Shown piece after piece: positions 21,483-27,759 of a stretch of DNA of 64,000 nt; positions within the stretch are counted from its first letter, which is position 1, and each line of letters opens with the position of its first letter. Made by a program: the position numbers and the translations under genes. The notes under the pieces are model-generated. The model was not told the DNA's origin. It searched no databases and worked only from the letters and a program-made list of their open reading frames with translations. Source of the stretch: Saitoella complicata NRRL Y-17804 (lineage: Eukaryota; Ascomycota; Saitoellomycetes; Saitoellales; Saitoellaceae); assembly GCF_001661265.1 (NCBI RefSeq), contig NW_017567024.1, positions 62,001 through 126,000 on the forward strand, in the 5' to 3' direction.

Positions 21483-21985
21483 GTTTCCCTCCCTTGATCT
21501 TGCAGCGACTCGAAGAGTATGGAGGTTCTTAAAATGGACCTCAACTTCGGAGTAAATAGGCCGAACTCAAACAGAGACGACCGTTCATTTTATGGGTGTT
21601 GTACGCAGCTACGTCGGTCTCTCTTTCCCGACGTATGTGTTCCCATGCAAACCCCACTCTGATCCGGACTGTCGATGTCCCGAGGTCCGGCTGAAGGCTC
21701 GAAAGGCTGGGCCTCTCGGTGTTGCGTGAGCCAACACCACCACGCTCCCCTCACACAACAGATGCCGCACACGAGCTGTAAAGATCAAAGCACAAATGGT
21801 CTGATATCGCATCTCCCCGCCAAACTCATCTTGTTTGCTTGAGCATGTGACGAATTGCGAGTGCGGGGTGGGGCGCACATTTTCTGGACCCTGTCCGGAA
21901 CAAAAACACCGAGAACCGACAAAACACCGACGGACAGTAATCGAGCCTTAGTCCGACCAGCAATTACAATATCGGTGTACCAGTA
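21483..21985. other. Divergent promoter region of permease pseudogene and Zn2Cys6 gene
   Basis: About 500 nt between two divergently oriented genes. No coding frame is supported. Zn2Cys6 regulators often bind here in such pairs; several CGG triplets occur (for example near 21681 and 21717) but no clear inverted pair stands out. Confidence 0.45.
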
Positions 21986-24388
21986 ATGTCCACTTTGCAG
22001 ACGAACAGCGATCTTAACGCGAATGGCAAACGCCCTCACCCACCGACGACGTCCTCACCCGATGATCCGCACCGCAATTTGACCGCTTGCGACAGCTGCA
22101 AGGCCCGGAAAGTGAAGTGTGATCGAGCGCAGCCTTCTTGTGAGTGGTGTAGGAAGGTTGGCGTGAGTTGTGTTTATCAGCAGAAGCGGAAGCCCGGGGT
22201 ACGTCCGGGTTATGGGAAGGAGTTGGAGGAGAGGGTTGAGATGTTGGAAAGACTGCTTGCACGACAAAACCAACCGCTACAGCCGAGTCCAGTTCAACAT
22301 TATGAGGCTCTTCCAGTGACGCCCACGCAGGGTTCTACTATACATGTACCTATCCCGGTTCCGACATTACAGGTTCCTCCGTCGCAGCCCATGATGGCAC
22401 CTCCATCACGACAGACTCCTGCGATTCACTCCTCCGGCTCATCCTTCAACTCTGACTTTCCAGCGGATTCGGTGGTTTATCACCTCCTCACCGTCTACTG
22501 CGACCTCGTACATCCCAATTGCCCGATCCTGCGCTGTAAGATCACGGTCGACACATTCTTCCATACCTCACCCGACGGAACAGTCGCTGCGCGAACAAGC
22601 ATCTCAGAACGCAAGCTAGCTTTATTATACGCCATCTGTGTCGCAGCTGGGAGACTTTGCTTACCCAGTCCCTTCGAAGATTTACAGCGTTTCCGGGCAC
22701 AGGCGAAAAGCCGAATCCTCTTACGCGTTCTAGCTCACCCCGGACTCCTATCCCTCCAAGCCCTAACCATCCTAGCCTTCGACGAAGTTGGTACCTCAAA
22801 TGGCCCCTCCGCCCTCGGCCTGGTGGCACTTCTCGGCCGTATGGTCAACCACCTCCGTCTCGCAACCGAAACCACCGTCCCGGATGCTGAGCCTTCAGAT
22901 GGTGCAGTACACACTTGCGGCGCAAACGTCCTTAGCGAAACGAATGACTCAATCGAGGAAGAAGGGAGACGGAGGATTTATTGGATGGCGTATATTTTGG
23001 ATGTGAGGACTGCGATGGCGACGGCGTTGGATTGCGTGTTGGCGGACGAGGAGGTGGGTGGGAATGGGAGAAGGCTCCCGTGTAGGGAGGAGGTGTGGCA
23101 GAACGCCAAGAGTGGGGAGCTGCACATTCACGACGGCGATCATACTGGTAGATCATCGGAGGATCTGAGTGCAGCTGCTGCTTTATCATACCTCGGAGCT
23201 GAATTACCCTGTCCATTTCCTTCCCAACCATTGGCGAGAGACAGCAGTGAACGAACGCCCTTCAGTTATCAAATCGAAATCTTGAGGGTCATTGGATGCA
23301 TTCACCGGTTCCTACGACGCGCTGTTGATATCAGATTGGAACGCGACGTAGAGAATTGGATGCGAGAGTACAAGAACCTTGAGGCGAGGCTGAACGCCTG
23401 GATGGCTGGCCTCCCAATCAAGTATGGTAGCCTCGGTTTCGGCGGAGGTGCCTCAGTCGACCCGGGATGGGTCCTCCTCCACGCCTGGTACAACACCGCC
23501 GTTATCCGACTCCACTCAACCGCCGCATACCCAGCGGCCACATCGATCCTCTTCTCCTCAAGTGCGTGGGCTGTACGGAAATGTTTGGCTGCAGTCGAAA
23601 ACGTGTCGTCACTGTGCAGCCTGGTTGCACAGCATGATTTGTACAAGGTGCTGGGGCATTCGTTTACGTTTGTGGTTTGGGTTGCGACGAGGGTGTTGCT
23701 TGTACATCACGCGTCTTTGACGGGAAGCCTGCGAACTCCTGCTACGTCGCCGGTCGCGACTACTTCGACTGGCAGAACAACAGCAGCAAGGAACACCACG
23801 GACGGACATCTGGGCACTTCGTCTCGTCATCGCCCGGTTTTGCCTGATGTACGACATTTTCTCACCGCCCTCAGCGCCATGGCAAAATACTGGGAAACAG
23901 CCTCCCGCTATGAGTTTATCATCGGCCGTGTCATTCAAGAACTCAACGAAGCGTGCACCGGCCGGTCCCCGACCAACACGAGTACCTCCTCCGAAAGTGG
24001 ACGGCTCTCGTCGGTGCAGATTCTCGCGGATATGAGACGAAATGCGTATGATGCCGATTTACTCATTTCACGGCAATCTCAGACGGAGAGGATGCCGATG
24101 ATTAGGTCGGTGATGGGGTATCGGAGTAAGAGTGAGATTGCTACGCCGGCTGCTGGGGGTGGGAGTGGAGACCAGGAACAAGGGATGGTGGGTGGTTTGG
24201 ATGATTTTGCGGGGGTGTTTGGGCAAGGCGGGCTAGGTGATGGCTTGGACATGTTTGATTGGTTCGATTTTCCGAAGGTATTGGTGGAGGCGAGTACCGG
24301 TGATGTTATGAATGGCATGCTGGCTGGGAATGAAGGATATGGGCACGGTGGTGGAGTAACGTTCGCTACGGGGGTAGGGCAAAGGTAA
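21986..24388 (+). CDS. Zn(II)2Cys6 transcription factor with fungal-specific middle domain
   Basis: Single exon, 800 residues, start at 21986. Residues 35-62 hold the binuclear zinc cluster with spacing C-x2-C-x6-C-x5-C-x2-C-x6-C (CDSCKARKVKCDRAQPSCEWC), then a basic linker and a short coiled coil (ELEERVEMLERLLARQ) for dimerisation. Residues 155-480 match the fungal_trans regulatory domain, with LLALLYAICVAAGRLC-like helices and GRRRIYWMAYILDVRTAMA. The C-terminus is Gly/Ser-rich with acidic and aromatic residues (LDMFDWFDFPKVL) that could be an activation region. Such proteins bind CGG triplets and control catabolic genes. Its position beside the lactonase and the decayed sugar permease suggests a pathway-specific activator; that link is inference. 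Confidence 0.92.
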   Translation: MSTLQTNSDLNANGKRPHPPTTSSPDDPHRNLTACDSCKARKVKCDRAQPSCEWCRKVGVSCVYQQKRKPGVRPGYGKELEERVEMLERLLARQNQPLQPSPVQHYEALPVTPTQGSTIHVPIPVPTLQVPPSQPMMAPPSRQTPAIHSSGSSFNSDFPADSVVYHLLTVYCDLVHPNCPILRCKITVDTFFHTSPDGTVAARTSISERKLALLYAICVAAGRLCLPSPFEDLQRFRAQAKSRILLRVLAHPGLLSLQALTILAFDEVGTSNGPSALGLVALLGRMVNHLRLATETTVPDAEPSDGAVHTCGANVLSETNDSIEEEGRRRIYWMAYILDVRTAMATALDCVLADEEVGGNGRRLPCREEVWQNAKSGELHIHDGDHTGRSSEDLSAAAALSYLGAELPCPFPSQPLARDSSERTPFSYQIEILRVIGCIHRFLRRAVDIRLERDVENWMREYKNLEARLNAWMAGLPIKYGSLGFGGGASVDPGWVLLHAWYNTAVIRLHSTAAYPAATSILFSSSAWAVRKCLAAVENVSSLCSLVAQHDLYKVLGHSFTFVVWVATRVLLVHHASLTGSLRTPATSPVATTSTGRTTAARNTTDGHLGTSSRHRPVLPDVRHFLTALSAMAKYWETASRYEFIIGRVIQELNEACTGRSPTNTSTSSESGRLSSVQILADMRRNAYDADLLISRQSQTERMPMIRSVMGYRSKSEIATPAAGGGSGDQEQGMVGGLDDFAGVFGQGGLGDGLDMFDWFDFPKVLVEASTGDVMNGMLAGNEGYGHGGGVTFATGVGQR

Positions 24389-25170: not shown

Positions 25171-26327
25171 CTACCTCTCCGGCCCAGGTCTCGCACCCTC
25201 AAAATTCTCCTTCCACTTCGCCCCCTCCCCGACAACCCCATACTCCTCCCTCTTCCAAACCTCCGCCCTCTTCTTGACCTCCTCAAGCACCCACTCCCCA
25301 GCCTCAAATGACTCTTTTCTATGCCCACAACTAACCGCAATCAAGATACTCTCCTCGCCCACCCCTACCGTTCCCAGTCTATGCGTCACCGCCACCCCCT
25401 CCAAATTCCAGCGTTGGAGAGCGGTGGTGGCGATGTGAGTGAGGGATGTGAGGGCGAGGGGGGTGTAGGATTCGTAGGAGAGGTGCGTGACGGGTTTGTT
25501 CTCGAAGTTGTCGCGGGTTGTACCGGAGAAGAGGACGATTGCGCCGGCTTTGGGGGAGCGGACACGGTCGATTTGGGTTTTGACGTCGAGGGTGTCGTAG
25601 GTCAAACTCACGAAAAGTCGCTCATCACCCGTCTCGGCTATCCAAGTCCTCTGCTCCCCCCCCTTTGGTTCCTCCTTCTCCGACTGAGGCTGTGCTTGAG
25701 CAGGGGTAGGTAGAGGTGGGAGGTTCGAACTTCTTCTGTCGAGGTAGGGACGCTGCAAATCATTCAACAACATCTCCTCCTCCGCACCAGGGTTAAGCGT
25801 CAACACAAACTCCTCTGCCTCATTCCGATCCTGAAAACTCTTATAACGTGCACCCGGGTATCCGGTGACTTGGGCAGAGCAGGTGGGCCAGTCGTAGTAG
25901 ACCCCGGGCCGGCGGCCCACAGCGACGGCGTAGTAGGCTTTGGGTGCGTAGGCTTTTGCTGAGGCATCTTTCTCTGCGTCTGCGTCTGCGTTCGTTACTA
26001 CGATTTGTGTCACGGGTGGAGCTGCGGGTGCTGGCGTGGGTGGGAGATCAGAATTACGGCGATCTAACCACGGGCGCTGGAAATCGCCGACGGTGAGGTT
26101 GTGTTCTGCGCCAGGGTTGACGGTTAGCACGAATTCCTCTGCTTCACTGCGGTCCGTGAAAGCTCTGTAGCGGGCACCGGGGTAGCCGGAGACTTGGGCG
26201 TCGCAAGCGTCCCTGTTCGTCATATGTCAGCCGTTGATCAGGACGAGCATTGTGAGGTTATGACAAACCAATCGTGGTAGAGACCGGGCTTGCGGCCAAT
26301 TGCGACGGCGTAGTATTGAATGGGCAT
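25171..26327 (-). CDS. Molybdopterin synthase large subunit (MoaE/MOCS2B) fused to two viroplasmin/RNase H1-type N-terminal modules
   Basis: Two minus-strand exons, 26269-26327 and 25171-26212, with a 56-nt intron (GTTTGT donor), 366 residues. Residues 5-50 and 113-157 are two copies of the caulimovirus-VI/RNase H1 N-terminal fold: YYAVAIGRKPGLYHDW and YYAVAVGRRPGVYYDW, each followed by AQV(S/T)GYPGARY, a phenylalanine, and EAEEFVLT. Each copy is followed by a matching linker (NPGAE, then RP-W/Y-LDRR and LPP). From about residue 218 a complete MoaE domain follows, keeping FSGTTRDN, THRLGTVGVGEESI, CGHRKESFEA and the two lysines in EVKKRAEVWKREE that correspond to the catalytic site. MoaE with MoaD puts sulfur into precursor Z to make molybdopterin. 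In RNase H1 the N-terminal module binds RNA/DNA hybrids or dsRNA. The fusion is continuous within one exon apart from the first 20 residues. Confidence 0.9.
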
Positions 26328-26732: not shown

Positions 26733-27608
26733 TCACAGCTGTGCATGCTCCTGCTCCCACGTCAAAATCCCCTCCACCAAAGACTCAGCGGTCGGCTTCT
26801 TCGCAACGACCTCTGGCTGCATCTTCCACTCCTTGACCAGATACTCCTCCGTCGTAGGTCCAATCGTCGCAATCCGGGGTCTGCGCCGCCCAGCTTCTTG
26901 CTCCTTCTGTAACTCCTTCAATGCAACTTCTGCGCCTGCTGGGGAGAAGAAGATGATCCATGCGACTGAGCCGGTGTCATTGTCGCGGCTTTCTGCTTCT
27001 GCGACAGCAGAGGCAAAGAGAGAGGGGAATGTTGACATGGTTCGGGTGACGTAGACGAGTTGTTCCACGACCGGCGCAGAGGGTTGCCCGCTTTGTAGCT
27101 TCCTGATGATGATATCCCGTCGTTGATCACCAACAAGGAAGAGTAAGGGACGGTGTTCGGATTTGGAGCGGATGGAGAGGATGTAGTCAGCCAATACTGA
27201 TCCATTTCCGGATTCCGATCCAAGGATGGAGGTGAAGCGGAGGTTTGCGATAGCTTTGTGGGTTGCGGGGCCAACGGTAAAAACGGACATTGATAGTAGG
27301 TTTGTTTTTTGTTCCTCTGTATGCTCAATGTCAGTCATTGTTGCATGATGTTCCGGATCGCACGTACCATTCAGCTTCTCCAGAACCCGACCTACCGCCT
27401 CCACAGCTCTTTGACTGGTAAGGATCAGGCCGCTGTATGTTTGATGCGGTCTCCCACTCAGTGTCTTCTCCAATTCCTCCTTATTCACTTCTGCATGCTC
27501 CAACACCGGCACAAAGATTGGTGGTAGTCCTGCCTGGTTGAATGCGGCATCATAGGGATCACTCGGCGTCGATCTCGTCTTTAACAACAAACAAGTCTTC
27601 GTAGCCAT
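26733..27608 (-). CDS. HEM4: Uroporphyrinogen-III synthase
   Basis: Two minus-strand exons, 27368-27608 and 26733-27316, 274 residues, start at 27608. The protein has the two-lobed HemD layout: an N-terminal lobe with CLLLKTRS, FVPVLEHAEV and YSGLILTSQRAVEAV, and a second lobe with FTVGPATHKAI, LFLVGDQRRDIIIRKL, VAWIIFFSPAGAEVAL and RIATIGPTTEEYL. It cyclises hydroxymethylbilane and inverts ring D in haem synthesis, in the cytosol. Length fits fungal members (about 275). The 51-nt intron (27317-27367) has a GTACGT donor and CATACAG acceptor, is a multiple of three and has no stop, so a retained form would add 17 residues. It shares a 151-nt divergent promoter with SEC24. Confidence 0.92.
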   Translation of the reverse strand: MATKTCLLLKTRSTPSDPYDAAFNQAGLPPIFVPVLEHAEVNKEELEKTLSGRPHQTYSGLILTSQRAVEAVGRVLEKLNGTCDPEHHATMTDIEHTEEQKTNLLSMSVFTVGPATHKAIANLRFTSILGSESGNGSVLADYILSIRSKSEHRPLLFLVGDQRRDIIIRKLQSGQPSAPVVEQLVYVTRTMSTFPSLFASAVAEAESRDNDTGSVAWIIFFSPAGAEVALKELQKEQEAGRRRPRIATIGPTTEEYLVKEWKMQPEVVAKKPTAESLVEGILTWEQEHAQL

Positions 27609-27759
27609 GCTGAATTGACTTTCCTCGTATGCCAATTGCAAGTCGGGTAATTTCGTTGGTTGCGGTGTAGCGTAGACTTTTGGAGTTTCGGCGCTCGAAC
27701 CCGCTACGTCAACGCAAAACACCAGGACAGCAACGAAGGTAGGCGAACGTCAATTGAAG
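27609..27759. promoter_or_regulatory. Short bidirectional promoter between HEM4 and SEC24
   Basis: Only 151 nt separate the start codons of the two divergent genes, so their promoters must overlap. No TATA box is evident, as expected for housekeeping promoters. Confidence 0.6.

Follow-up and report, generated by a model that had tools for sequence, protein, structure and literature searches.

Molybdopterin (MPT) synthase is a cytosolic 2+2 heterotetramer in which thiocarboxylated MOCS2A serves as the sulfur donor (PMC5372717, in extracts). The large subunit, called MoaE, MOCS2B or, in fungi, CnxH, is known to take on fusion partners. In Mycobacterium, MoaX carries MoaE with a partner at its N-terminal end, as does the fungal protein described here; the partner in MoaX is MoaD and, according to extracts of PMC4326299, it must be cut off for activity. 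Drosophila Mocs2B (dMoaE) likewise has a second domain on MoaE. This domain gives dMoaE a place outside molybdenum-cofactor (Moco) synthesis, in the ATAC complex (extracts of PMC9228816). It differs from the fungal case in being an MBIP domain, at the C-terminal end, in an animal.

The hybrid-binding domain of RNase H1 has been described in another setting. RHINO, three human hybrid-binding domains in tandem, works as a hybrid sensor; when W43 is changed to A, or K59 and K60 both to A, focal binding is lost and just a diffuse nuclear signal is left (PMC10639055, in the passages available). The domain can bind protein too, being the part of RNase H1 to which human P32 attaches, as part of PMC3750045 reports.

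Here we describe a gene of Saitoella complicata in which these two families are joined. It lies in the window, by which we mean the whole 64,000-nucleotide stretch of DNA that was analysed. The enzyme and the module are each already known; what is new is the pairing of the PF01693 module with MoaE. A first-pass annotation, made from the sequence alone, had called this architecture undescribed, and we too met no such fusion in the titles or abstract openings listed by the literature searches. Four points below go beyond that annotation: the strand of the gene, its standing as the genome's single MoaE match, a repeat longer than the module, and the close conservation of the repeats between two species. 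The fusion is important because it offers a clean natural test of whether nucleic acid can place or regulate a cofactor-building enzyme. MoaE is an enzyme domain of long standing with a housekeeping role, and the sole copy found here, in a fungus with nitrate reductase and other Moco enzymes, carries two modules of a type that goes with duplex RNA. The Saitoella protein joins the Drosophila ATAC case as a MoaE with a second life, and it puts the RNase H1 module to use outside nucleases.

The gene and its MoaE domain

Read from 26327 to 25171 on the minus strand, the open frames make up one gene with one 56-nt intron and a product of 366 aa. The first-pass annotation had proposed one frame, interrupted only by this intron, with two modules followed by a full MoaE domain; the gene model and the Pfam matches bear it out. 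The coding region (25171..26327; this and all features of the gene given below are on the minus strand) begins with an ATG at 26327 and ends with a stop at 25173-25171, and a protein of S. coloradoensis (P0001) has the same architecture. Exon 1 is 59 nt long (26269..26327) and exon 2, with the stop, covers 25171..26212. Between them lies the intron (26213..26268), which runs from GT to AG within the first module and contains a branch-like CTGAC sequence. Two AGs fall within 90 nt of the donor, and the one at 26213 alone keeps the frame. We infer the splice 26269/26212 from the gene's own sequence and from the S. coloradoensis homologue. A frame or assembly artefact is ruled out by the same architecture in the S. 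coloradoensis record and by open reading through both linkers.

The intron also holds an ATG in frame with exon 2 (26223-26221, minus strand). Only with the intron retained could translation begin at this ATG, to give a shorter product whose module 1 would be truncated. Upstream of the fusion gene and sharing its strand is a gene for uroporphyrinogen-III synthase (HEM4; 26736-27749 of the window, minus). On the other side a Zn2Cys6 fungal transcription factor, an 815-aa open frame at window positions 21941-24385 (plus), is convergent with the fusion gene.

The MoaE domain, that of the MPT synthase large subunit, makes up residues 218-366 (25174..25620). PF02391 matches residues 224-335 over positions 2-114 of its 114-position profile, with an E-value of 2.9e-37 and 127.8 bits against a cut-off of 23.4. 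Is the active site intact? The positions of E. coli MoaE that we take to be catalytic or substrate-binding, R39, H103, R104, K119 and K126, correspond to R253, H317, R318, K333 and K340 of the fusion protein. Each of the five is the same residue throughout the 28 MoaE rows of our alignment (A1), P0001 among them; A1 also includes seven PF01693 proteins, whose other parts are mostly set against MoaE columns. The first-pass reading of a complete active site is upheld at these five positions. A degenerate MoaE, as in vertebrate MBIP, was considered and is ruled out by the same five residues. The predicted structure of P0001 superposes on human MPT synthase (5mpo_C) with an rmsd of 1.3 Å over 126 columns and a TM-score, by target, of 0.90.

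A profile search of the genome (14,122,262 bases in 34 contigs) returned the fusion gene as its single PF02391 match. No second, ordinary MoaE was found in the 14.12 Mb (one candidate, one match) by this search, which went through six frames exon by exon and which a gene split into very short exons could escape. The rest of the pathway is close to hand. A separate MoaD-like gene, whose product ends in VIPPVSGG, lies at C5:402 kb, MoaA at C5:403.4 kb and MoaC at C5:404 kb. They form a Moco cluster of about 2.6 kb (G000:C5:401998-404562), in which the MoaD-like gene is read on the minus strand and the other two on the plus strand; the MoaE fusion gene is on a different contig, C33, whose positions 62001-126000 make up the window. 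The MoCF domain has four matches in the genome and ThiF has 13, counted together. One gene (L007) is a nitrate reductase by domain order, with Mo, dimer, cytochrome b5, FAD and NAD domains, the last slightly below its cut-off in the stretch read, and two more genes (L008 and L009) carry Oxidored_molyb/Mo-co_dimer domains. Both a MoaD partner and Moco enzymes are present, then, in the genome that has the MoaE fusion.

In these respects the protein resembles MoaE, MOCS2B and fungal CnxH: it has a full MoaE domain, the fold and the five active-site residues, and it stands as one copy in a Moco-using genome with a separate MoaD ending in GG. Since the sole MoaE match stands in a genome that also has MoaD, MoaA, MoaC and nitrate reductase, the fusion protein very probably serves Saitoella as the functional large subunit of its MPT synthase. 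It differs from other MoaE proteins in what precedes the domain. Among the matches listed, PF01693 is missing from the precomputed domains of those proteins, whereas here 217 residues lie N-terminal to MoaE and contain two PF01693 modules.

Two repeated units of the hybrid-binding type

Two stretches of the fusion protein match PF01693 (140 bits against a cut-off of 21; E 2.7e-41). The core of module 1, split by the intron, covers residues 4-48 (26128..26318) and that of module 2 residues 112-156 (25804..25938). Across the genome PF01693 gives four stretches, all above the cut-off. Three are in the fusion gene, module 1 being divided by the intron, and the remaining one is Saitoella's own RNase H1 gene (C6:49198-49944). 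Pfam finds no RNase H catalytic domain in the fusion protein. Nor is it a caulimovirus protein VI, in which such a module also occurs: its gene lies on a fungal contig and has an intron and a MoaE domain, PF01693 being the sole other domain found.

The repeated unit extends beyond the Pfam module. It is 82 aa long and occurs at residues 2-83 (26023..26324) and 110-191 (25699..25944), with 55 of 82 residues identical between the copies; their alignment scores 324, against a highest score of 58 in 500 shuffles. In each unit a core of some 45 residues is followed by a short helix and then by a tail of the form QRP(W/Y)LDRR(N/S)S(D/N)LPP, which is the QRPWLDRRNSDLPPTPAPA tail in unit 1 and the QRPYLDRRSSNLPPLPTPA tail in unit 2. 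Linker 1 (residues 84-109; 25945..26022), of low model confidence and divergent between species, separates the units, and linker 2 (residues 192-217; 25621..25698) leads into MoaE. The idea that the tail is a known motif gained no support. A regular expression for QRPxLDRR matched P0001 alone among the 320 proteins collected, and a tail query against the genome, at E-values up to 10, matched the fusion gene's two copies alone.

Do the modules have the fold that their Pfam assignment implies? Structure prediction of the N-terminal half, in the P0001 model, recovered the hybrid-binding fold, in agreement with the RNase H1-type modules named in the first-pass annotation. The model superposes on the human hybrid-binding domain with bound RNA/DNA (3bsu_A) to within 0.4 Å over 45 columns; the match is short, with a Foldseek E-value of 1.3e-3, and is not assigned to either one of the two modules. 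With a pTM of 0.49, the model informs on single domains and not on how the domains are placed relative to one another. The tails are mostly below a pLDDT of 50 and the linkers are of low confidence. A separate model of unit 2 alone, of lower confidence (mean pLDDT 71), has the same elements. Matches of the modules in the PDB to family-45 endoglucanases, at E-values of 0.026 or worse, we took as chance.

The residues are those of a hybrid-binding domain in part. W43 of the human domain is kept in both modules (W20 and W128), as it is in 161 of 168 other domains, and the aromatic at position 58 is kept in both. K59 becomes R36 in module 1 and K144 in module 2, so that a basic residue stands at this position in each. 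K60 is replaced by A37 and S145. This position is K in 24 of the 168 other domains and G or S in 127. The net charge is -2 in one core and 0 in the other, where 159 family domains average +2.2; charges as low as these occur in 10% and 20% of the 159, respectively, and for comparison Saitoella's own RNase H1 has +2 in its domain and the human domain has +4. These counts of positions and charges come from domains retrieved with the fusion protein as query and do not sample the family neutrally. Compared with the hybrid-binding domain of RNase H1, then, the Saitoella modules share the fold, the tryptophan, the aromatic at 58 and the basic residue at 59; they differ in being joined to MoaE rather than RNase H, in having A or S in place of K60, in being less basic and in having a conserved extension of 36-37 residues with the QRPxLDRR tail. 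Binding of a duplex, RNA/DNA hybrid or double-stranded RNA, is plausible from the family, the fold and the kept tryptophan, and we rate it slightly likelier than its absence.

How old are the units? The S. coloradoensis protein, at 364 aa, has 94% identity to the 366-aa protein. We compared the two species region by region, with regions bounded by the repeat and Pfam matches (here and there one residue off the borders given above). Identity reaches 160 of 162 positions in the units (residues 4-84 and 111-191): 43/44 and 45/45 in the cores, 37/37 and 35/36 in the remainders. The tails, residues 65-83 and 173-191, are unchanged at all 38 positions. MoaE (218-366) is identical at 140 of 149 positions. 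For the linkers (85-110 and 192-217) the figure is 41 of 52, two gap columns being scored as changes. By Fisher's test units differ from linkers with p 3.8e-6, units from MoaE with p 0.03 and MoaE from linkers with p 0.005. In this comparison of two species, conservation of the units is no lower than that of the enzyme domain.

When unit 1 is set against unit 2, dN is 0.29 and dS is saturated, from 1.7 (LWL85) to 2.5 (NG86); the same codon is used at 25 of the 55 residues common to both. Because dS is saturated while 55 of 82 residues are still shared, the duplication is old and both copies have been retained. An origin of the modules as copies from Saitoella's own RNase H1 is not supported. 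Aligned with that protein, the cores of the units have 22 of 47 and 26 of 46 residues in common with it. In a midpoint-rooted tree of domains with at least 38 residues, the four Saitoella modules cluster together (support 0.81), next join three PF01585 proteins (0.56) and then P0071, an RNase H protein (0.92). They do not group with their own RNase H1, in a tree of domains too short to decide the matter.

What the modules may do

Why would a cofactor-building enzyme keep two such modules? The account towards which we lean is that of an MPT synthase large subunit with a long-standing N-terminal extension that would bind duplexes and so keep the enzyme at RNA. The extension consists of two 82-aa units on flexible linkers, each an RNase-H1-type hybrid-binding fold followed by a QRPxLDRR...PP tail. 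MoaE would pair with the separately encoded MoaD, with its GG end, and convert cPMP to MPT. If the enzyme is a 2+2 heterotetramer like the human synthase, it would have four modules in all, two per MoaE chain. Together these would bind A-form duplex with avidity, whether structured or double-stranded RNA or an RNA/DNA hybrid. Their task would be to position the enzyme on RNA, or to store it there, and not to share in catalysis.

A bolder claim is that Saitoella's only MPT synthase is RNA-bound, the four duplex-binding modules of the heterotetramer tethering cofactor synthesis to particular structured RNAs. This we regard as doubtful. Candidate sites would be the mRNAs for nitrate reductase, the ribosomes on which it is made, or the vicinity of the tRNA-thiolation machinery, which has the same sulfur donor. 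If the claim were true, Moco would be made where or when it is needed. Links of the enzyme to R-loops, ribosomes or the sensing of nucleic acid or sulfur are speculation.

Might the modules have exchanged nucleic acid for protein? In a working MPT synthase they could have lost their original binding and now make protein-protein contacts with a Moco-pathway or scaffold partner, the QRPxLDRR...PP tails being the recognised peptides. We consider this possible but less likely than duplex binding. The low net charge of the cores and the replacement of K60 fit such a change; yet both modules retain the key tryptophan and an aromatic at position 58, and K60 is missing from most other domains examined too, where G or S usually takes its place (127/168). 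The tails speak for recognition by a protein, in that they are mostly of pLDDT below 50 and yet unchanged between species at every residue, and in that the tail query matched nothing else in the genome. There are precedents in both families: extracts of PMC3750045 indicate that a hybrid-binding domain can bind protein, and in those of PMC9228816 the domain fused to Drosophila MoaE is required for entry into ATAC.

Much less probable is a gene with two products, full-length protein and a short MoaE made by initiation at Met167 or by proteolysis, with the modules acting apart from the enzyme. Met167 (25771..25773) is the sole in-frame methionine after Met1 and is kept in both Saitoella species; a start there would remove both module cores and leave MoaE. 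Mycobacterium MoaX offers a parallel, since it requires cleavage into MoaD and MoaE for activity. The parallel is imperfect: in MoaX the cut falls behind the Gly-Gly of the MoaD part, and catalysis depends on both of these glycines (PMC4326299, extracts for both points), whereas an N-terminal extension of MoaE would have no evident need for cutting.

The slimmest case is that for a passenger, an N-terminal fusion of accidental origin that is neutral or close to it, harmless and without a role: the restriction of the fusion to one genus among the matches listed and the drifting, low-confidence linkers would suit it, but it is unlikely given that the units are identical at 160 of 162 positions between species against 41 of 52 in the linkers, and that 55 of 82 residues have been kept between units despite saturated dS.

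Occurrence of the architecture

The first-pass annotation had suggested that the same domain order be sought elsewhere, and no pairing of PF01693 with MoaE was seen outside Saitoella among the matches listed. In the search with the full protein, P0001 alone had both domains among the matches listed (the best 120 of 147), and in the N-terminal search P0001 was again the only one, in 100 of 100 matches. A search with the MoaE domain (best 120 of 469) used length limits that leave out any full-length fusion. Among the matches listed, no protein was named as coming from Taphrina, Protomyces or Neolecta. The architecture is conserved in both Saitoella species compared and is so far a feature of the genus.

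Each half has been joined to other things elsewhere. In other fungi PF01693 occurs in tandem without RNase H, in P0065 (Apiospora) and P0123 (Whalleya), so the module is mobile. These two and P0095, from the same two genera, have PF01693 and no RNase H in their precomputed Pfam lists, and have long C-terminal regions without a listed domain. MoaE, for its part, is fused to guanylate kinase in metagenome proteins (P0002, P0207, P0208, P0209 and P0211) that are 59-63% identical to the MoaE-domain query over 89-93% of its length. The first four are the best-scoring matches of that search, and P0211 comes sixth, after the unfused P0210. Like the Saitoella protein they are joined in one frame; unlike it, they have their partner, PF00625, at the C-terminal end and are without PF01693. 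Saitoella's only PF00625 match is a separate gene, at C12:223400.
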